From Acidobacteria bacterium RIFCSPLOWO2_02_FULL_65_29 (GTDB lineage Bacteria; Acidobacteriota; Vicinamibacteria; Vicinamibacterales; CAVVIG01), in the NCBI GenBank assembly GCA_001767435.1, contig MEKT01000163.1:26215-66886 (forward strand): DNA of 40,672 nt, written 5' to 3'. Both the position numbers and the translations under genes were made by a program. The notes under the pieces are model-generated. The model ran no database searches. It had not been told where the DNA came from and saw only the letters and a program-made list of their open reading frames with translations. Shown here one piece after another: positions 3,086 through 40,597 of the stretch (positions are counted from its first letter, which is position 1; each line of letters starts with the position of its first letter).

Positions 3086-3118
3086 CCCCAGTCCCAGTCC
3101 CTAGTCCCTAGTCCCTAA
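3086..3118. repeat. CTAGTCC 7-mer array at rpsM stop
   Basis: Four to five units of the type CTAGTCC fill almost the entire gap between rpsM and rpsK. The rpsM stop codon (3115-3117) is the last TAG of the array on the transcribed strand. The same unit recurs at 17.3 kb and 39.7 kb. Confidence 0.85.
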
Positions 3119-3502: not shown

Positions 3503-3594
3503 CGAATTTGAGAATTTGAGAATGTGAGAATCTGAGGATCTTGAGACCCTTCAGATAAATCCTCACATCCTCAAATCCTCACATCCTCAAATTA
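3503..3594. repeat. Two-armed 8-mer inverted repeat, rpmJ-rpsM
   Basis: Left arm 3504-3547 contains 8-base units of the type GAATTTGA; the right arm 3559-3594 contains TCCTCAAA and TCCTCACA. The arms pair with several mismatches and G-U pairs. The rpmJ stop (3592-3594) lies at the end of the right arm. Confidence 0.85.
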
Positions 3595-3705
3595 CCCCTG
3601 TCTCTGTTTGTGTTTCTGGTTCGGACAAATGACGCGCACGACACCCCGGCGCCGTACGATCTTGCATTTGTCGCAAATCCGTTTCACCGACGCACGCACT
3701 TTCAT
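3592..3705 (-). CDS. rpmJ: 50S ribosomal protein L36
   Basis: L36, the smallest large-subunit protein, 37 residues. It reads [20 protein letters not shown] at the N-terminus and then [16 protein letters not shown]. It is the zinc-ribbon form: C11, C14, C27 and H32 are the expected ligands. It lies between infA and rpsM, as in most bacteria. Both flanking gaps are filled with AAATCCTC-type repeats, and its own stop codon is the first bases of one of them. Confidence 0.98.
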
Positions 3706-7517: not shown

Positions 7518-7522
7518 GGCGA

Positions 7523-7581
7523 TCTCAATTCCTCAATTTCTCAAATCCTCAAATCCTCAAATCCTCAAATCCTCAAATTCG
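7523..7581. repeat. CCTCAAAT 8-mer array, rpmD-rplO
   Basis: Six to seven tandem units of CCTCAAAT or close variants occupy most of the 70-bp gap. There is one arm only. On the transcribed strand each unit carries a TGA, spaced 8 nt apart, so all three frames are closed within 24 nt. Confidence 0.88.
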
Positions 7582-7587
7582 AGGCCA

Positions 7588-7809
7588 TCACCCACTCACG
7601 TCCACCAGGTGTCGCACCTTGTGAATCATGCCGCGCGTCGCCGGCGTGTCCTTGATCTCCACGGTGTGCCGGATGCGGCGCAGCCCGAGGCTGCGCACGA
7701 CGATTGCCTGCTTCCGATCGAACCCGGTTGGGCTCCTGAGGAGCGTCACGGTGACGGTGCCTGTGTTCTTCGAGTCGGTTCGCTCATTGACCATTGGCGC
7801 CTGCGTCAT
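7588..7809 (-). CDS. rpmD: 50S ribosomal protein L30
   Basis: L30 of the large subunit. The core [19 protein letters not shown] followed by RSLGLRRI and the C-terminal [13 protein letters not shown] are diagnostic. The ATG gives 73 residues, slightly over the usual 58-62. An internal ATG five codons on (MVNERTDSK) would give 68 and is equally possible. It follows rpsE, as in the standard spc operon. Confidence 0.96.
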
Positions 7810-8471: not shown

Positions 8472-8538
8472 GTAACGAAGCTTCGTCTCACACCGACGAG
8501 AAAACCGAGGCTCTGGGTCGGTGGAGCGTCGTTACTAG
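8472..8538. repeat. Dispersed 67-bp palindromic element, copy 1
   Basis: Begins GTAACGAAGCTTCG and ends CGTTACTAG, with complementary ends. It closely matches 21626-21693 and, inverted, 22070-22136; all share a CCGACGAG/CCGACGG core. It lies between rpsE and rplR and contributes the rplR stop codon (8535-8537). It resembles REP or MITE-like elements; no transposase is present in the window. Confidence 0.8.
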
Positions 8539-8911: not shown

Positions 8912-9454
8912 TTAGGCCTTCGCGCCTGTCTTACCCGCCTTCTTCTTCAGCACTTCGCCCGTGTAGCGGACGCCCTTCTGCTTGTAGGGATCCGGCTCGC
9001 GCAGGCGTCGGATGTTGGCGGCCACCTGGCCGACCAACTGCCGGTCGACGCCGGTCACGGTGATGTGCGTCTGCTTTTCGATCACGATGTCGATGGCGTT
9101 GGGAATGTCGAAGACGACCGCGTGCGCGTAGCCCAGGGCGAAGATCACCTGCTTGCCCTTGACCTCGGCTCGGTAGCCCACGCCGACGATATCGAGCTCT
9201 TTCTTGAAGCCACCGGTGACACCGGCGACGGCGTTGGCCACGAGGCTCCGCGCCAGGCCGTGGAACTTGCCGAGTGCGGGACTGTCGGTCGCCTGCTTCG
9301 CCAGCAGCTGGCCACCCGCGAGCTCGAAATCGATGCCACTCGGCACGCCCTGCGTCAGCGTGCCTTTCGGGCCCTGCACTTCGACCGCGCCCACGAGCAC
9401 CTTGACGGTGACGCCCTTGGGAATCGTGATTGGCTTTCTTCCGATTCGAGACAT
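8912..9454 (-). CDS. rplF: 50S ribosomal protein L6
   Basis: L6 lies near the sarcin-ricin loop and the factor-binding site. Two L6 repeats are visible; the second ends with the signature [20 protein letters not shown]. The 180 residues are normal. Order rpsH-rplF-rplR is conserved. Its upstream gap to rpsH is a two-armed repeat, while its downstream junction is only 2 bp. Confidence 0.99.
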
Positions 9455-9464
9455 ATCGTTATCT

Positions 9465-9525
9465 CAGTTGACAGTTGACAGTTGACAGTTGACAGTCTGT
9501 GAACTGTCGACTGTGAACTGTCGAC
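9465..9525. repeat. Two-armed TTGACAG repeat, rpsH-rplF
   Basis: Left arm 9465-9497 has four TTGACAG units; right arm 9499-9525 has alternating CTGTCGA and CTGTGAA. The arms are nearly contiguous, giving a long hairpin with a tiny loop. The same pair of unit types recurs at 11182-11270. This family has no stop codon on the transcribed strand. Confidence 0.9.
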
Positions 9526-9535
9526 TTCGCGATCT

Positions 9536-9946
9536 TCACCAGATATTGCACAACACCTCACCGCCGACGCCCGCCTTGACCGCCGCGCGGCCGGTCATCA
9601 CACCACGCGACGTGGTCAGAATGCTGGTGCCGAGCCCCGCCAGCACCACCGGCACATCGTCGCGCCCGAAGTAGACGCGGCGGCCCGGGCGGCTGATGCG
9701 CGCGACGCCGGTGATGAGACGTTCGCCGTGCGGCCCGTATTTCAGGAACAGGCGGAGCGTCTTGACGGGGCCGGCCGCCTTGCCGCCGTCCTCGTCGAGG
9801 AGCTTGAAGCCCTGAATGTAGCCCTCGTCCTGAAGAATCCGCGCGATGTCGGTCTTGATGCGCGAGCTCGGCATGTCGACCCGCGTGTGCTTGGCGGTCA
9901 CGGCGTTACGAATGCGCGCAATCATGTCGGCGATAGGATCTGTCAT
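9536..9946 (-). CDS. rpsH: 30S ribosomal protein S8
   Basis: S8, a primary binder of 16S rRNA helix 21 and, in E. coli, the repressor of the spc operon. It starts MTDPIADMIARIRNA and ends GRAAVKAGVGGEVLCNIW, both classic. The 136 residues are within range. It lies between rpsZ and rplF; both gaps carry arrays. Confidence 0.99.
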   Translation of the reverse strand: MTDPIADMIARIRNAVTAKHTRVDMPSSRIKTDIARILQDEGYIQGFKLLDEDGGKAAGPVKTLRLFLKYGPHGERLITGVARISRPGRRVYFGRDDVPVVLAGLGTSILTTSRGVMTGRAAVKAGVGGEVLCNIW

Positions 9947-9950
9947 ATCT

Positions 9951-10000
9951 TCAGCTCTCAGCTCTCGGCTCTCAGCTTTCGGCTCTCAGTTCTCGACTCT
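9951..10000. repeat. TCAGCTC 7-mer array, rpsZ-rpsH
   Basis: Seven units of TCAGCTC/TCGGCTC/TCAGTTC just ahead of rpsH. It is one of the few arrays closer to the downstream start (9946) than to the upstream stop (10075). A weaker relic with TAGCTGA-like units lies at 10056-10080, beside the rpsZ stop. Confidence 0.8.
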
Positions 10001-10074
10001 CCGCCATGACCCACCAGCTCCAGTCCTCAGCACGTTGGTCGACCGCCCGCCGGAACCTATAGCTGATAGCCGCT

Positions 10075-11946: not shown

Positions 11947-11955
11947 ATCTGTTTC

Positions 11956-12056
11956 TCGAATCGGGTAATTGGATAATTGGGTAATCGGCTAATTGAAGAC
12001 TCAGCAATTGAGCAATCCAATTACCCGATTACTCGATTACCCGATTACCAGATTCA
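11956..12056. repeat. Two-armed TAATTGGG repeat, rpmC-rpsQ
   Basis: Left arm 11957-11994 carries 8-mers of TAATTGGG/TAATCGGG; right arm 12012-12056 carries TTACCCGA and TTACTCGA. The arms pair over about 35 nt with few mismatches. The rpmC stop (12054-12056) is the end of the right arm. On the sense strand a TAA recurs every 8 nt. Confidence 0.9.
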
Positions 12057-12245
12057 CCGTTCCCTCTTCTGCCTCGCCACGGTCTTGACGCGAGCGAGAT
12101 CGCGACGCACGGTCCGCATCTTGTCGGGCGCTTCGAGCTGTCCCATCGATTTCTGAATCCGCATCCGGAACAGCTGATCGACGAGCTCGCGCTCCTTGGT
12201 CCCCAGCTCGTCCGGGCCGAGATCCCGCAGCTCAGCGGCCTTCAT
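12054..12245 (-). CDS. rpmC: 50S ribosomal protein L29
   Basis: L29, a small two-helix protein at the tunnel exit, part of the SRP and trigger-factor docking site. The 63 residues start [20 protein letters not shown] and include [15 protein letters not shown]. The ATG overlaps the rplP stop by 4 bp (ATGA), so it is coupled. Identification rests on the family pattern and the rplP-rpmC-rpsQ order. Confidence 0.98.
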
Positions 12246-12667: not shown

Positions 12668-12681
12668 ACGCTGTTATCCCG

Positions 12682-12765
12682 AATTGGGTAATTGGATAAT
12701 CGGGTAATCGAGTAATCGATGGCTCAATAGATCAATCCAATTACCCAATTACCCGATTACCCGAT

Positions 12766-12768
<3 letters not shown>
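12682..12768. repeat. Two-armed TAATTGGG repeat, rpsC-rplP
   Basis: Same family as 11956-12056. Left arm 12681-12718 (GGGTAATT, GGATAATC), right arm 12732-12768 (CCAATTAC, CCGATTAC). The rpsC stop (12766-12768) is the end of the right arm. Confidence 0.9.
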
Positions 12769-13461
<693 letters not shown>

Positions 13462-16822: not shown

Positions 16823-16914
16823 CCAGAGGCTGGAGGCTCGAGGCTTGGGACGAGGACGAACGTTCGCGACGTGCGTCGCCGTTCTTCCAGCCCCCAGCCC
16901 CCAGCCTCTAGCCT

Positions 16915-16917
<3 letters not shown>
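16823..16917. repeat. Two-armed 7-mer repeat, rpsJ-rplC
   Basis: Left arm 16823-16849 (AGGCTGG, AGGCTCG), right arm 16887-16918 (CCAGCCC, CTAGCCT). The arms pair across a 37-nt loop. The rpsJ stop (16915-16917) is in the right arm. Confidence 0.85.
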
Positions 16918-17250
<333 letters not shown>

Positions 17251-17264
17251 ATTCGTGATCTCAG

Positions 17265-17374
17265 TAGGGACTAGAGGCTGGGGACTAGGGGCCAGAAGAA
17301 CTCTCGAGCTCTCCCTCGTGCCGAGTCCCTAGTCGCTAGTCCCTAGTCCCTAGTCCCTAGTCCCGAGTCCCTGT
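17265..17374. repeat. Two-armed CTAGTCC repeat, fusA-rpsJ
   Basis: Right arm 17323-17373 has seven units of CTAGTCC/CTAGTCG; left arm 17265-17293 has complementary GGACTAG/GGGGACT units. The fusA stop codon (17374-17376) directly touches the right arm. Each unit gives a TAG on the transcribed strand. Confidence 0.9.
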
Positions 17375-20640: not shown

Positions 20641-20706
20641 CCTGGTGACATCGCTGGTCACGGCGGCGTCCGCGCTGGCGCGGCAGCCGTAGGCCGTCAC
20701 GAAACA

Positions 20707-20768
20707 GTCGTTAAGTCCGTTAGTCGCTAGTCGTTAGTCGCTAGTCGTTAGTCGTTAGTCGTTAGTCG
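20707..20768. repeat. GTCGTTA/GTCGCTA 7-mer array
   Basis: About eight tandem 7-base units alternating GTCGTTA and GTCGCTA, upstream of the rpsL promoter. Each unit has a stop triplet on both strands. The same family occurs at 39.3 and 40.4-40.6 kb. Confidence 0.9.
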
Positions 20769-20798
20769 CGCCGTGAATTCGAGCCTCACGGGGTTTGT

Positions 20799-20825
20799 TT
20801 CGCGTTTTCGTGTTTTCGTGGCCTA
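20799..20825. repeat. ACGAAAAC 8-mer array at PP2C stop
   Basis: On the minus strand the stop TAG of the phosphatase gene is followed directly by GCCACGAAAACACGAAAAC. It belongs to the same family as 28631-28715 and 32761-32804. Confidence 0.8.
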
Positions 20826-21602
20826 ACCGGGCAGATACTGCGCGACGAGGGCCGTGCAGTTGTCGCGGCTGCCGCGTGCGAGCGCGGTGCGTACCAGGTT
20901 GGTGGCGATCGCCGCCGGGTCCCATCCCTCCGACAGCAACCTCCTGATCCGCCGATCGTCCAGTACTCCGTGCACGCCGTCGGTCGTCATCGCGATGAAT
21001 TCGCCGCCGCGCAGCGTCTCTTCCACCACGTGCACGTCGGCGCCCACGAAGGCGCCCACGGCGTTGGTCAGCGCGTTCCGCATGGGATGGTGCATGAGCG
21101 ACACGGGATCGATGCGTGGATCCCCGGCGAGCGTCGCCGCCATCCACGAGTCGTCCAGCGTGACCTGCCGTAGTTCGTCGTCCGCAAACACGTACAGACG
21201 GCTGTCGCCAACATGGGCGACCGTGAGCCGGTCGCCGCTGAGCAGGGCCGCGACGATCGTCGTGCCCATGCCCGAATACTGTTCGTCGGCCGCCGATGTT
21301 TCGAGGACCTGGACGTGTGCGGAGTAAATGGCCGTGCGAAGCAGGTTGCCGGCTCGCGACAGCTCGGTCTCGAACCCAAATGGCCATTCGCCGGTCTCGT
21401 CGACCGAACGAGGCGCGAGCGTCGCGCGCCGGATCTGCTCCACGACGGCATCCACGGCCAAACGCGCGGCCACTTCCCCGGCGTTGTGCCCACCCATGCC
21501 GTCGGCGATGACGCAAAGCCGAAGTGATTCGTCGACGAAGAAGAAGTCTTCGTTGACGTCACGGACGCGGCCCCTGTCCGTTACGCCGTGCGCGCGCAGC
21601 AC
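20823..21602 (-). CDS. PP2C-type serine/threonine phosphatase
   Basis: Cytoplasmic metal-dependent phosphatase that reverses Ser/Thr phosphorylation, of the PrpC/Stp type. Motifs in order: RDVNED (14-19), DGMGGH (34-39), GTTIVAALL, HVGDSR, MTTDGVHGVLDD and DNCTALV (from D247). These supply the aspartates for two metal ions. The 259 residues match a stand-alone catalytic domain; no kinase gene lies next to it. The start is a GTG. It points into the ribosomal cluster but is separated from it by 439 bp with a separate promoter. The stop codon touches an array, and a compound palindrome lies upstream. Confidence 0.95.
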   Translation of the reverse strand: MLRAHGVTDRGRVRDVNEDFFFVDESLRLCVIADGMGGHNAGEVAARLAVDAVVEQIRRATLAPRSVDETGEWPFGFETELSRAGNLLRTAIYSAHVQVLETSAADEQYSGMGTTIVAALLSGDRLTVAHVGDSRLYVFADDELRQVTLDDSWMAATLAGDPRIDPVSLMHHPMRNALTNAVGAFVGADVHVVEETLRGGEFIAMTTDGVHGVLDDRRIRRLLSEGWDPAAIATNLVRTALARGSRDNCTALVAQYLPG

Positions 21603-21625
21603 GCCTGCATGCCTTCTGGTCCCCT

Positions 21626-22136
21626 GTAACGAAGCTCCGCCTCGAACCGACGGAAAAAACGAAGCGCCTGGGGCGGCGAAGCTTCGTTACTAGTTGCGCG
21701 GCCGCCGGAGCGGCCGCGCCTAAGACAGCTTCTAAGGCTCACCGACAGAAACTGGCTTCATGTATCACGATCACGGCCTTTAGAAGATGTCTAGGGATCC
21801 CGTACGGGTTTCGTGGTGTATCGGCCTGCCCAAGGCCTCGGAACAGGTCGGCCACGCCTCAACTTTCGCATTTCGACACGAACTTAACGTGGGGCTCCGC
21901 CCCACACCCCGGCTCGGTCGCTTGCGGGGACCCCTACGCCCCGCGCCGCTCCCTCGCAGGCGCGCCGTGCGCGCCTAGACATCTTCTAAGGCCCGACTCG
22001 TGACAAAAGAGGCAATTCTGTCCTGCGTCTTAGAAGCCGTCTTAGTTGCGGCCGCGGAGCGGCCGCCTAGTAGCGAAGATTCGCTGGTCTACCCACGAGC
22101 CCGTTACTCGTCGGTGAGGCGAAGCTTCGCTACTCA
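21626..22136. repeat. 511-bp compound nested palindrome
   Basis: Fills the gene-free stretch 21603-22129. Three inverted pairs are nested about a centre near 21880. Outermost is a 67-bp palindromic element, direct at 21626-21693 and inverted at 22070-22136. Next is a GC-rich NotI-like palindrome joined to CTAAGACAGCTTCTAAGG (21691-21738 against 22026-22070). Innermost is TAGAAGATGTCTAGG (21775-21795 against 21974-21994). The middle contains CCCGTACGGG and GTGGGGCTCCGCCCCAC palindromes and no convincing coding frame. The DinB-like gene takes its stop codon from the right end. Confidence 0.88.
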
Positions 22137-22606
22137 AACTCTCTACGCGGGGCCACCTGGTCTGTGCCGACGCGGCCGGCGGCGATGTCGGCCTTGAAAT
22201 AGTTCTCGCCCCTGATGGCCGTGCCCGCCAGGCGACGGAGCATGGCGAGCTGACCGATGTGAGTCAGCGCGTCGGCGAGGGGGCCCTGAACAATCTGCTC
22301 GGCTGGGCACCCGAGCGGCGCGTCGGACACCAGGTACGCGTCGAAGCGCCCGATCGCCTCGAAAAAGCGCACGACCTCCTGGTCCCATTCGAGAGGCGTC
22401 GAGTCGTGCCACTCCTGCTTCCCCTTGGCAATCGACAGGGCCCAGTCGAAGAGGTCGCCCACGTGCGCCAGGATGCGCGCCGGCGTGCGCGTCGTCTCGC
22501 CAATCCGGAAGGACGCGAAGGTCGACGGCGCGTCGCGCACCGATTTCGCACCGCGGTACGCAATCGTGGCGACCACATGGCGCAGGAGCTCACGCTTGGG
22601 ATCCAT
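22130..22606 (-). CDS. DinB-like four-helix protein
   Basis: A 158-residue protein that fits the DinB/YfiT-like superfamily: helical bundles with a three-His metal site and mostly unknown substrates, some being thiol-dependent transferases. Visible signs are RTPARILAHVGDLFDWAL near residue 40-57 and HIGQLAMLRRLAG near 116, which hold two of the expected histidines. It follows the helicase gene with no gap, so the two are probably co-transcribed. Specific function unknown. Confidence 0.8.
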   Translation of the reverse strand: MDPKRELLRHVVATIAYRGAKSVRDAPSTFASFRIGETTRTPARILAHVGDLFDWALSIAKGKQEWHDSTPLEWDQEVVRFFEAIGRFDAYLVSDAPLGCPAEQIVQGPLADALTHIGQLAMLRRLAGTAIRGENYFKADIAAGRVGTDQVAPRREFE

Positions 22607-28618: not shown

Positions 28619-28630
28619 GGGTGCCCCTTT

Positions 28631-28715
28631 GGCCACGAAGACACGAAGACACGAAGAAGACAATCGGCGCTTCGCGGCCACAAAGGCACGAAGACACGAA
28701 AACACGAAAAAGACA
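28631..28715. repeat. ACACGAAG 8-mer array, two tandem copies
   Basis: Two direct copies (28631-28661 and 28677-28715) begin with GGCCAC and continue with ACACGAAG units. They lie 12 bp upstream of the M28 peptidase start, in its 5' leader. A short 9-mer relic with GCGTCCTTT and GCGTCCTCG units follows at 28757-28777. Confidence 0.85.
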
Positions 28716-37001: not shown

Positions 37002-37853
37002 TCAAAATAGGCTCGACACACGGCTCGCGGCCACGTCGTGCGGCCGATCGATGAGTCCTGCCAGCAGCGCCGCGTGGCCGATGACCTGCGGCGCGGTCCA
37101 GCCCCTGGCTCGGGAATCGCGAACGCCCGTATCCCCATCCGACTTGCTCAACTTCTGCGTGGGCGTTTTCATGATCAGCGTGTGATGCAGAAACCGCGGC
37201 GGGGCGGTCCGACCGAGCAGCCTCGCGAGCTGGATCTGCCGGCCGGTCGACGCGAGCAGATCGTCGCCTCGGATCACCAGCGTCACACTCTGCTCGAAAT
37301 CGTCGATGGTCGCCACGAACTGATAGGTCCAGTTGCCCTCCCGGTCGCGGACCAGCAGGTCGCCGCACTGCGCCGAAGGCTGCTGTTCGCACACGCTGTG
37401 CGCGAGATCCTCGAAGCGCTCGATCGAGGGCGCCAGGCGCACCCGCGTGCCAAGGCCGGGCCGTTCCGGCAGGCCCTTACCCGAGCACGTGCCCGGATAC
37501 CTGAGCTCGCTGCCGGACTTCCCCGCCGCCGAGATCTCGCTCCGCGAGCACTCACACGCGTAGACGAGCCCGTCCGCACGCAACCGTGCGAGGGCGGATT
37601 CGTAGACGGCGTGGCGTTCGCTCTGGCGGACAAGCGGCTCAGGCGACCGGAAGCCGAGCCAGTCGAGATCGTCGAGAATCGCCCTCTCGTACTCGGCCCG
37701 ACTTCGCTGCCGGTCGTGATCCTCGATGCGCAGCAACACGCGCCCGCCGCGCGCGCCGGTCACACCCCAGACGTAGATCGCATTGAGGACGTGGCCCAGA
37801 TGCAGGAATCCGGTTGGTGCGGGAGCGAAGCGGGAGAGGACAGGGTCAGGCAA
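37002..37853 (-). CDS. gluQ: Glutamyl-Q tRNA(Asp) synthetase
   Basis: Attaches glutamate to the queuosine base of tRNA(Asp). It is a truncated glutamyl-tRNA synthetase with no anticodon-binding domain. Visible: HIGH-type motif HLGH (18-21) after RFAPAPTG, RIEDHDRQR, the zinc site C-X-C (CECS) with Tyr/Cys in RYPGTC, and the KLSKS loop (TQKLSKSDGD). The 283 residues fit GluQRS. The start is a TTG that lies in the left arm of an AATTCTT array; no better start and no Shine-Dalgarno sequence is visible. The C-terminus is followed by a 185-bp gap with one possible gene fragment. Confidence 0.94.
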   Translation of the reverse strand: MPDPVLSRFAPAPTGFLHLGHVLNAIYVWGVTGARGGRVLLRIEDHDRQRSRAEYERAILDDLDWLGFRSPEPLVRQSERHAVYESALARLRADGLVYACECSRSEISAAGKSGSELRYPGTCSGKGLPERPGLGTRVRLAPSIERFEDLAHSVCEQQPSAQCGDLLVRDREGNWTYQFVATIDDFEQSVTLVIRGDDLLASTGRQIQLARLLGRTAPPRFLHHTLIMKTPTQKLSKSDGDTGVRDSRARGWTAPQVIGHAALLAGLIDRPHDVAASRVSSLF

Positions 37854-37963
37854 TTAAGAATTCGGAATTAAGAATTAAGAATTCGTAACGAGACACGACG
37901 ATGAGCTAACCAGGAGGCCGATCGAGACGCATTCTTAATTCTCAATTCTTAATTCTTAATTGC
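37851..37963. repeat. Two-armed AATTCTT repeat, P450-gluQ
   Basis: Left arm 37851-37886 (AATTAAG, AATTCGG), right arm 37930-37963 (AATTCTT, AATTCTC). The left arm holds the gluQ TTG start; the right arm encodes the last residues and stop of the P450. So one array supplies coding bases to both neighbours. Confidence 0.88.
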
Positions 37964-39288
37964 GTGTTCATCCTGAGCCCGCCCTTCACCCGCAGCGTGA
38001 CGACCGGTTGCGGCACCACCGAACGGCCGGGCACGAGACGCAGGCGCCATCGCTGGGCGATGGTGCTGACGACGAGGACGAGCTCCATCCAGGCAAACGA
38101 CTCGCCGATGCATCGGCGCGCACCGCCCCCAAACGGAAAATACGCGAACGGCTGGAGCCGGGCCTTGAACTCGGCGGTCCAGCGATCCGGCCAGAAACGC
38201 TCCGGGTCCGGAAAGTACCTTGCGTCGCGGTGCACCAGGTAAGGACTCATCACGACGATCGACCGGGCGGGAATCAGATACTCGCCGACCTCGTAGTCCT
38301 CGAGCGCGCGCCGCCCGATGATCCATGCGGGGGGATACAGCCGCATCGACTCGGTGACGACCTTCTCGACGAAGGGCAGCGCCGGGATGTCGGCAACAGT
38401 CGGCAGTCGGCCGCCGAGCACGCGATCGATCTCCTCGTGCAGCGCTGCCTCGACCTCTGGCGTCTGGCTCAACAGGTACCACGTCCACGCCAGCGCGTTC
38501 GCCGTTGTCTCGTGGCCGGCGAGGAAGATGGTCATCGCTTCGTCGCGGACCTCGAGGTCGCTCATTCCCTGGCCGCCAGCTTCTTCGTCTTGCGCCATCA
38601 GAAGCATCGACAGTAGATCGCCGCGGTCGCTCGGCGACGTGCGGCGCTCGGCGATCATCGCATAGATGATTCTGTCGAGCGTTTCGCGCGCCGCGCGGCT
38701 CCGGCGCAGTGCCGGAATCGGCAGCCGTTCCAGCAGATCCGGGAACGGCAGCATCAGCATCCAGAACGATTCCATCGTCGCCGCGAGCGCCTTGCCCACT
38801 TCCTTCGCCTGCGACTCGACGTCGGCGTCAAACAGCGTCTTTCCGACGACGCCGAGAGTGAGCCTTGCCATGTCCTGCGCGGCGTCAATCGTCCCCCCGT
38901 CGGTCCAACCGCGGCGGACGCGGTCGGAGAACTCGGTCATCACGCTCGCGTACGACGCAATCCGATCGCGATGGAAGGCGGGCTGCATCAGACGCCGCTG
39001 GCGCACGTGCACGGCCCCCTCGCTCGTGAGCAGGCCTTCGCCGAGCAGCCGCTTGGCCCGATCGAGGCCGCGGCCCTTCATGAACAGGCGCTGGTCGGTG
39101 ACCAGGATGTCGCGGATCGCGCGAGGATCGTTGACGAGGTAGACGTGCTCTCCCGCCATGTGGACGTGGGCGAGATCGCCGTACGTGCGGGCCAGGTTCC
39201 CGAAAAACGACAGCGGGTCCCGTCCGGGGCCGTAGACGAGGAGCGTGCGGATCGAGCGCCGCGGGCCGGGAGGGGAGGCGACGGGCAT
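37942..39288 (-). CDS. Cytochrome P450
   Basis: Haem-thiolate monooxygenase, 448 residues, soluble. The I-helix AGHETTA, the K-helix ESMR, the PERF-like PDPERFWPDRW and the haem loop FPFGGGARRCIG with Cys393 are present. Substrate unknown; no ferredoxin gene lies next to it. The tail after GGLRMNT (last six residues) is encoded by the downstream array and not by ancestral sequence. Sequence type is close to CYP families of Acidobacteria and Actinobacteria, by eye only. Confidence 0.95.
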   Translation of the reverse strand: MPVASPPGPRRSIRTLLVYGPGRDPLSFFGNLARTYGDLAHVHMAGEHVYLVNDPRAIRDILVTDQRLFMKGRGLDRAKRLLGEGLLTSEGAVHVRQRRLMQPAFHRDRIASYASVMTEFSDRVRRGWTDGGTIDAAQDMARLTLGVVGKTLFDADVESQAKEVGKALAATMESFWMLMLPFPDLLERLPIPALRRSRAARETLDRIIYAMIAERRTSPSDRGDLLSMLLMAQDEEAGGQGMSDLEVRDEAMTIFLAGHETTANALAWTWYLLSQTPEVEAALHEEIDRVLGGRLPTVADIPALPFVEKVVTESMRLYPPAWIIGRRALEDYEVGEYLIPARSIVVMSPYLVHRDARYFPDPERFWPDRWTAEFKARLQPFAYFPFGGGARRCIGESFAWMELVLVVSTIAQRWRLRLVPGRSVVPQPVVTLRVKGGLRMNTQLRIKN

Positions 39289-39357
39289 GTTAGTCGCTAG
39301 TCGCTAGTCGCTAGTCGCTAGTCGCTAGTCGTTAGTCGGTAGCCGCTAGTCGCAAGC
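39289..39357. repeat. GTCGCTA 7-mer array upstream of P450
   Basis: Nine units of AGTCGCT/AGTCGTT lie directly upstream of the P450 ATG, so its leader is repeat DNA. Only one arm is seen. Confidence 0.9.
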
Positions 39358-39387
39358 TGCGAGCGTCTGCCGAAGCCTGGCGTGCGG

Positions 39388-39786: not shown

Positions 39787-40428
39787 TCAGATCGCCGCCT
39801 GCCACGCCTTGATGGCTTCAATTGGATACACGAGCATCAGGATGTTGAGCGTGAGGTTATCGCGGATCCAGAACACCAGCATGACCTCGAACAGCACCAC
39901 CCACGTGATCGTCGCGGCCCGGGGCAGGCGCCAGGCCATCAGAAATCCGACAATGCACGCGACGATGTCGGCCGCAGAATTGATGAGGCTGTCTCCGTAG
40001 TAGCCGAGCGAGATGGTTTCCGTCCGGTACCGCTCGACCACCGTGTCGGTGTTCTCGTACACCTCCCAGGCGGCTTCGACGCCGGTGGCGACGAGCAGGC
40101 GCGTGGCGATCGACGCCGGGCGCATCGCCAGCCACGTCAGGCCGTAGAATGCCGCGCCGTGCGTGACGTGCGTGAGGGCATAGGGATCGGCGATCTGCTG
40201 TGAGTTCTGATCGCTCGTGATGTCTCCAGACCAGAGCCTGACGGGGCCGTGACGATACGTCACGGGCCTGCCCATGCCGAGCTCGAGGCCGGCGGCCACG
40301 ATCATCAGCGCGACGACGAACGCGAGGTCGACGGCCGGGCGGCTGGTCTTCAAGACAAATCGCCGCCAGCCCATCAGCGTCGCCGCCGTGCCGGCGATGA
40401 TCAGTGGAGGGAAGAAGCCATCCAGCAT
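39787..40428 (-). CDS. DUF2585 (UPF0314) membrane protein
   Basis: A 213-residue inner-membrane protein with about six hydrophobic segments. VRLWSGDITSDQNSQQIADP, YALTHVTHGAAFYGL, EAAWEVYENTD and SLGYYGDSLINSAADI are the conserved blocks of the DUF2585 family. The Trp/Ser/Asp, His, Glu-Asn and Gly-Asp-Ser residues lie between helices and could form an active site, as in membrane hydrolases. No function is known. Directly upstream is a long two-armed array. Confidence 0.9.
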   Translation of the reverse strand: MLDGFFPPLIIAGTAATLMGWRRFVLKTSRPAVDLAFVVALMIVAAGLELGMGRPVTYRHGPVRLWSGDITSDQNSQQIADPYALTHVTHGAAFYGLTWLAMRPASIATRLLVATGVEAAWEVYENTDTVVERYRTETISLGYYGDSLINSAADIVACIVGFLMAWRLPRAATITWVVLFEVMLVFWIRDNLTLNILMLVYPIEAIKAWQAAI

Positions 40429-40597
40429 AGTCGTTAGTCGTTAGTCGTGAGTCGCTAGTCTTGAGTCGTGAGTCGTGAGTCGCTAGTCTTGAGTCGTGAG
40501 TCGTGATTCGTGAGTCGCATCGCCATCAAGGCACTGGCAGGACTAACGACTATCGACTAACGACTATCGACTATCGACTATTCGACTATTCGACTCA
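40429..40597. repeat. Long two-armed GTCGTTA repeat
   Basis: Left arm 40429-40518 has 12 or 13 units (AGTCGTT, AGTCGTG, AGTCGCT, AGTCTTG). Right arm 40541-40597 has about eight complementary ACGACTA/TCGACTA units. The arms enclose a 22-nt loop. The right arm delivers the stop codon of the next gene. It is the longest array in the window. Confidence 0.92.

Follow-up and report, generated by a model that had tools for sequence, protein, structure and literature searches.

In the literature, REPs are found no more than 20 bp from the 3′ ends of ORFs and form clusters in opposite orientation; GTAG REP termini are a frequent source of TAG stop codons, and CGTC REPs have no dedicated transposase (PMC3733652). 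TnpA-REP has been shown to cut at CT or CA adjoining REPs (PMC8266576). Within the Acidobacteria, a repeat family has been described for Koribacter, namely the TIRs of TIRYT genes (PMC3733652). Here we consider a 511-bp patch at positions 21626–22136 of a 40,672-nt stretch of acidobacterial DNA (the window). Our results suggest that this patch is quite probably a BIME-like cluster that arose by three insertions from two mobile hairpin families, here called A and B, and not one element. Separate insertions can thus yield a striking symmetrical intergenic structure.

Architecture of the 511-bp patch

Family B, which the patch contains twice, measures about 165 bp; it starts with GTA[G/A]C and ends with GTCTAG, with three hairpins in between. 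The first copy (21626–21794, plus strand) has the ends GTAAC ... GTCTAG, is 94% identical to B consensus 1–169 and folds into hairpins at 21626–21690 (H1), about 21696–21719 (H2) and about 21720–21794 (H3). The second copy is inverted (21975–22133, minus strand), with B 1–169 matched at 22133–21974. When 21626–21796 was compared with the reverse complement of 21975–22134, the two halves gave one continuous alignment with a local score of 108, whereas 200 dinucleotide shuffles averaged 17 and reached at most 26. The inverted pairs listed in a preliminary description of this DNA are all present by coordinates: the arms at 21710–21741/22024–22055 and 21774–21795/21974–21995, and the caps at 21626–21641/21675–21690 and 22069–22084/22119–22134. 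Their nesting, however, does not make them independent features, since one three-hairpin repeat standing twice in opposite orientation explains all of them. The caps are, as had been proposed, copies of a 67-bp element, which corresponds to B hairpin 1 and also stands alone at 8472–8538 (plus strand, 86.8% identity to B 1–68).

The patch had further been described as ordered around one centre. This is true of the two halves, which are inverted copies, but the centre itself is asymmetrical: it consists of a unique spacer of about 93 bp (21795–21887), including the CTTAA where the family A left end starts, and of a copy of family A (21888–21978, plus strand) that had been overlooked. This copy is a short form with a 100% match to A consensus 2–95; it comprises a left hairpin GTGGGGCTCCGCCCCAC, a GC-rich core and a right hairpin GGCGCGCCGTGCGCGCC, and it ends in CTAG. 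Family A and the second B copy join right end to right end, the palindromic CTAG being common to both. The claim that the patch exactly fills a gene-free gap also needs a correction. The gap (21603–22129) between a PP2C-type phosphatase ORF (20823–21602, minus strand) and an ORF without a Pfam match (22130–22606, minus strand) is indeed filled, but the patch also extends over the stop codon of the gene upstream: the TAG at 22130–22132 (minus strand, GAG-TAG-CGAAGC) comes from the GTAG terminus of the second B copy, whose left-end distance to this stop is −4.

Folding of the 511 nt (−291.8 kcal/mol) was far better than that of shuffled sequences (z −10.5), and a structured RNA had been among the readings first offered. 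Besides the strong fold, this reading has the covariation of the B stems on its side. In an alignment of 24 B copies, 98.0% of the cells of 38 pairs are paired and six pairs have changed on both sides, a level that 0/500 shuffles attained; a two-sided change also shows the pairing of GTAGC/GTAAC with GCTAC/GTTAC. Single-stranded DNA, however, would be expected to show such covariation just as much, and an Rfam search of the window returned no match at the gathering threshold.

We searched the source genome (5.5 Mb in 239 contigs) with a 531-bp query covering the patch. The middle of the query (271–364, about 94 bp) had dozens of matches at 97–100% identity and the outer parts had fewer; this search found neither a match elsewhere for the spacer at 21795–21887 nor a second B-A-B block. 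Family B, whole or as sub-modules, occurs in 20 of 60 relatives, with further copies in the source genome, and in several places it stands at stop codons. Inner and outer parts alike recur symmetrically in the source genome and in relatives, the opposite of what would have spoken against the preliminary description, so the earlier notion of a composite MITE holds as far as MITE-like parts are concerned, but movement of B-A-B as a unit is not supported. The stronger version of that notion would be a single composite transposon that uses B as long terminal inverted repeats and moves as a 508-bp unit. The inverted B copies do flank the rest in the manner of TIRs, and contig C44 has a second inverted B pair; nevertheless, most other B copies are solitary, the spacer is unique, the B-A-B block was found once in the source genome, and flanking B is nearly absent from the roughly 78 copies of A. 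A composite transposon is therefore very improbable.

Many intergenic spacers of the window hold repeats of a different kind, namely degenerate tandem arrays whose unit is 7 or 8 bp long (14 bp in some) and differs by spacer (CCCTAGT, TAGTCGT, TCCTCAAA, ATTACCCG and others). They were seen at 3086–3117, 3548–3602, 7518–7588, 9452–10005, 11954–12068, 12669–12780, 16881–17373, 20692–20774, 28623–28715, 37847–37966, 39255–39365 and 40406–40595, and are like the short tandemly repeated repeats of cyanobacteria.

Spread, modules and ends of family A

The A core pattern has 83 matches in the source genome, most of them without mismatch, versus 3 for a backward control, which we read as about 78 A places. 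Insert-free cores average 98.7% identity to the consensus in the source genome and 92.3% in other genomes; the 18 of 39 source-genome cores that are identical to the consensus suggest a recent spread. Family A is present in 22 of 60 relatives, belonging to several families of the order, and was not found in the other 38. When 84,980 species were scanned for the exact pattern, the matches listed included only Acidobacteria/Vicinamibacterales records; no exact match that would point to a virus as vehicle was found in viral contigs. By this distribution, the window would come from Vicinamibacterales or close to it.

Copies of A range from 91 to 150 bp. The 91-bp form has the structure CGTGGGGCTCCGCCCCAC-core-GGCGCGCCGTGCGCGCC-TAG, many copies carry an extra right-hand hairpin CCCGTTATGCGG...GCATAACGGGCTAA, and others contain extra hairpin cassettes, in many combinations, at roughly three fixed points within A that follow ACACCCC, CGCTTGCG and CCCTCG. 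Cassettes of the CCCTTCGACTGGCTCAGGG type, for instance, stand at fixed positions inside A at L112, L117, L138, L148 and L154, among others. At the other extreme, the copy on contig C146 consists of the left and right hairpins alone; in relatives, A also forms head-to-tail tandems. A CCCTGAGC...GTCGAAGGG hairpin is also found in the REP loop beside a RAYT of a complete relative (L102).

Could these dispersed palindromes simply be binding sites of a nucleoid or chromosome-organising protein? Dispersal as such would be expected of binding sites, and PMC2817692 reports REPs and BIMEs to be bound by several proteins. Variable hairpin cassettes, patchy occurrence among relatives and insertion-like junctions are all at variance with this explanation, which we regard as extremely improbable.

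The left end of A is sharp. It reads CT[A/C]A-CGTGGGG, and the left flanks of 70 copies have nothing in common but (AA)CT[A/C]AC directly before GTGGGG, with A at −2 and C at −1 in 99% of copies each and T at −4 in 89%; past about 10 bp upstream there is little conservation. The right end is either GGGCTAA-like (in long forms) or GCGCGCCTAG, and is independent of the left flank. Since the right end does not follow the left flank, there is no copy-specific target duplication. Accordingly, the flanks agreed in 2.28 of 4 letters, compared with 2.08 expected after shuffling (p 0.025) and with the 4 of 4 that a true duplication would give, and we rejected the target-duplication model for lack of a copy-specific match. 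Family A also lacks the TIRs and target-site duplication that define classical MITEs, its two ends differing in sequence. Two further readings were discarded. The tail hairpin GTTATGC...GCATAAC was judged by eye not to be attC-like, as its GTT/AAC boxes are inverted in order and no cassette arrays were seen; a Helitron-like ending, recognised by CTRR, was dropped because the right flank is not T.

The sole empty site found within the genome is provided by locus L154, where a B copy is interrupted by a copy of A and continues on its far side. The A element is bordered there by GACATCTTCTAA and GGTCATGATC, versus GACATCTTCTAAGGCCATGATC in B; in a longer reading, GACATCTTCTAA is followed by C-GTGGGG...CGGGCTGA and then by GGTCATGATCG, versus GACATCTTCTAAGGCCATGATCG in B. 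These junction sequences agree equally well with duplication-free joining on the 3′ side of CTAA and with a cut inside it, between CT and AA. The left hairpin of A starts 1 nt from the target, which leaves no space for an IS608-type guide.

These features can be accommodated in one scenario. Two B copies would have inserted into a single gap between genes, in opposite orientations, with a copy of the unrelated repeat A inserting between them. Both A and B would be non-autonomous miniature elements of a REP-like kind, moving as single strands in folded form: an enzyme supplied in trans would cut them beside a tetranucleotide that contains CT and join them either 3′ of CTAA or within it; mobilisation in trans is probable for both families. 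Stop codons would then be tolerated landing sites because, we infer, the junction keeps a stop codon.

Stop codons and the search for a mobiliser

The association of A with stop codons is strong. According to our own simple GC3-based gene caller, which is crude, 31 of the 33 source-genome genes that read into an A left end have a stop codon within 14 nt of it, as against 23 of 227 CTAA/CTCA/TTAA/ATAA sites after genes (Fisher p 3e-23); in other genomes the corresponding counts are 15/19 and 53/393 (p 1e-9). In those 31 cases the stop codon ends 1–14 nt before the first hairpin base of A, most commonly at a spacing of 1 nt (CTAA-C-GTGGGG) or 5 nt (TGA-CTCAC-GTGGGG). Copies within called genes are few (3/78). 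Several of the proteins encoded at A align with homologues up to, or nearly up to, their last residue, and the genes are thus not visibly truncated. Among A-free genes, TAA serves as the stop in 27 of 144 and the stop context CTAA occurs in 1 of 144; with CTAA this rare, the TAA found at A may either have been there as a prior target or have been supplied by the element. In the same set of A-free genes (n = 144), C precedes about a third of TAG/TGA stops, yet CTAA is seen once.

A position directly 3′ of stops, together with the strong fold and the compensatory changes in B, might be taken to mean that A and B serve the host as cis-acting RNA elements (3′-UTR structures, terminators or ribosome-termination structures) that are selected after stop codons and dispersed secondarily. 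PMC7518266 indeed describes a conserved RNA structure that follows directly upon stop codons. However, the left end faces the 5′ side of a gene in about half of the A copies and 15 copies lie between divergent genes, which argues that A is not simply a terminator. Near-identity of A copies within the genome, the copy that interrupts B, the tandem copies and the failure to find A in 38 of 60 relatives likewise speak against this reading, and we consider a host RNA role unlikely. Hairpins placed right after stop codons could still have incidental effects on the 3′ ends of mRNAs. Taken further, the mobile-element reading would have A and B belong to a superfamily of modular hairpin elements that extends across the order, selective for stops via a CTAA-type target, keeping a stop at the junction, gathering cassettes at fixed internal positions and moved by an enzyme unlike any known IS200/RAYT kind. 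We put forward this wider proposal as a rather doubtful one.

If A and B move in trans, which enzyme moves them? The source genome has no Y1 transposase match (PF01797) and no RAYT match with a profile built from ten RAYTs of this order. Among relatives, 15 of 20 have a Y1 match, with no convincing A or B near these loci, and several of their RAYTs have different REPs, for example GTCCGGCTGAAGCCGGAC, on their flanks. TnpB was found in none of 12 genomes, including the source genome. IS110 and IS91-type genes occur in most, not all, A carriers, and no convincing A/B match lies alongside those checked. No autonomous copy of A or B was found, and RAYT, TnpB, IS110 and IS91 were all set aside as partners, being either absent or without flanking A/B. 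As separate observations, RAYT genes with REP families of their own (GGTAGGGCGCGG..., GTCCGGCTGAAGCCGGAC), unrelated to A/B, are seen at L102 (1141–1960), L093, L098 and L104, and in the source genome IS91-type transposase genes lie directly 3′ of a tyrosine-recombinase-like ORF (L340, 576–2813; L341).

A mover of the non-Y1 type (an IS110-type, IS91-type or still other recombinase) would agree with the 6 IS110 and 4 IS91-type matches in the source genome, where Y1 was not found, and with the IS91-like combination of a precise end beside a tetranucleotide and a far end that varies. On the other hand, genome G003 is rich in A and has no PF02371 or PF04986 match, and the IS110 and IS91 loci checked carry no convincing A/B match at their sides. 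We regard a non-Y1 enzyme as rather doubtful. More generally, A and B may be the leftovers of a lost enzyme, the enzyme may be absent from the draft assembly (97% complete), or it may be of another kind.

Comparison with known repeat systems

GTAG and CGTC REPs and their BIMEs resemble A and B in several ways. All are dispersed extragenic palindromes with tens to hundreds of copies that often cluster in opposite orientation, lie near ORF 3′ ends and supply stop codons from their termini; family A is extragenic, of high copy number and near ORF 3′ ends, as REPs are. The absence of a dedicated transposase is shared with CGTC REPs. In contrast, REPs are single palindromes of 20–40 bp, whereas A and B measure 91–170 bp, have two or three hairpins and, in the case of A, carry internal hairpin cassettes. 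The tag differs as well: A has CT[A/C]A(C), which is neither GTAG nor CGTC, and the GTAG of B is base-paired to CTAC, while the REP tag is unpaired. Finally, a REPtron, in which the repeat flanks its cognate RAYT, is not seen in the source genome, which has no RAYT.

PATEs and other non-autonomous IS200-IS605 derivatives also have a hairpin at each end and no terminal inverted repeats. Like A, they insert 3′ of a fixed tetranucleotide without target duplication and repeat the tetranucleotide at the right end, although for A this target assignment is drawn from one empty site, with which a cut within CTAA agrees too. They differ in that the left hairpin of A abuts the target (1 nt), that the source genome lacks TnpA and that the ends of A and B match no autonomous TnpA/TnpB element (TnpB being absent in 12 genomes). 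One-ended MITEs of the IS91 type have one precise end at a tetranucleotide, a variable far end and no target duplication. Family A shares all three features, but no A/B-like ends were seen at the IS91-type genes checked. Some TIR repeats of acidobacterial TIRYT genes, such as those of Koribacter, are partly or wholly self-complementary and some are clustered (PMC3733652), which makes them similar to A and B; they flank a tyrosine transposase gene, however, and no such gene was found next to A or B.

Overall, A and B are best filed as REP-like in placement and clustering, yet distinct from REPs in size, in tag and in having no RAYT. Their hosts belong to an uncultured acidobacterial order without a known mover for such repeats. 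Family A has some 78 near-identical copies here whose ends are sharp, one empty site and a strong preference for stop codons, in genomes without the usual RAYT, and so turns the spread of REP-like palindromes that have no dedicated transposase into a testable question.
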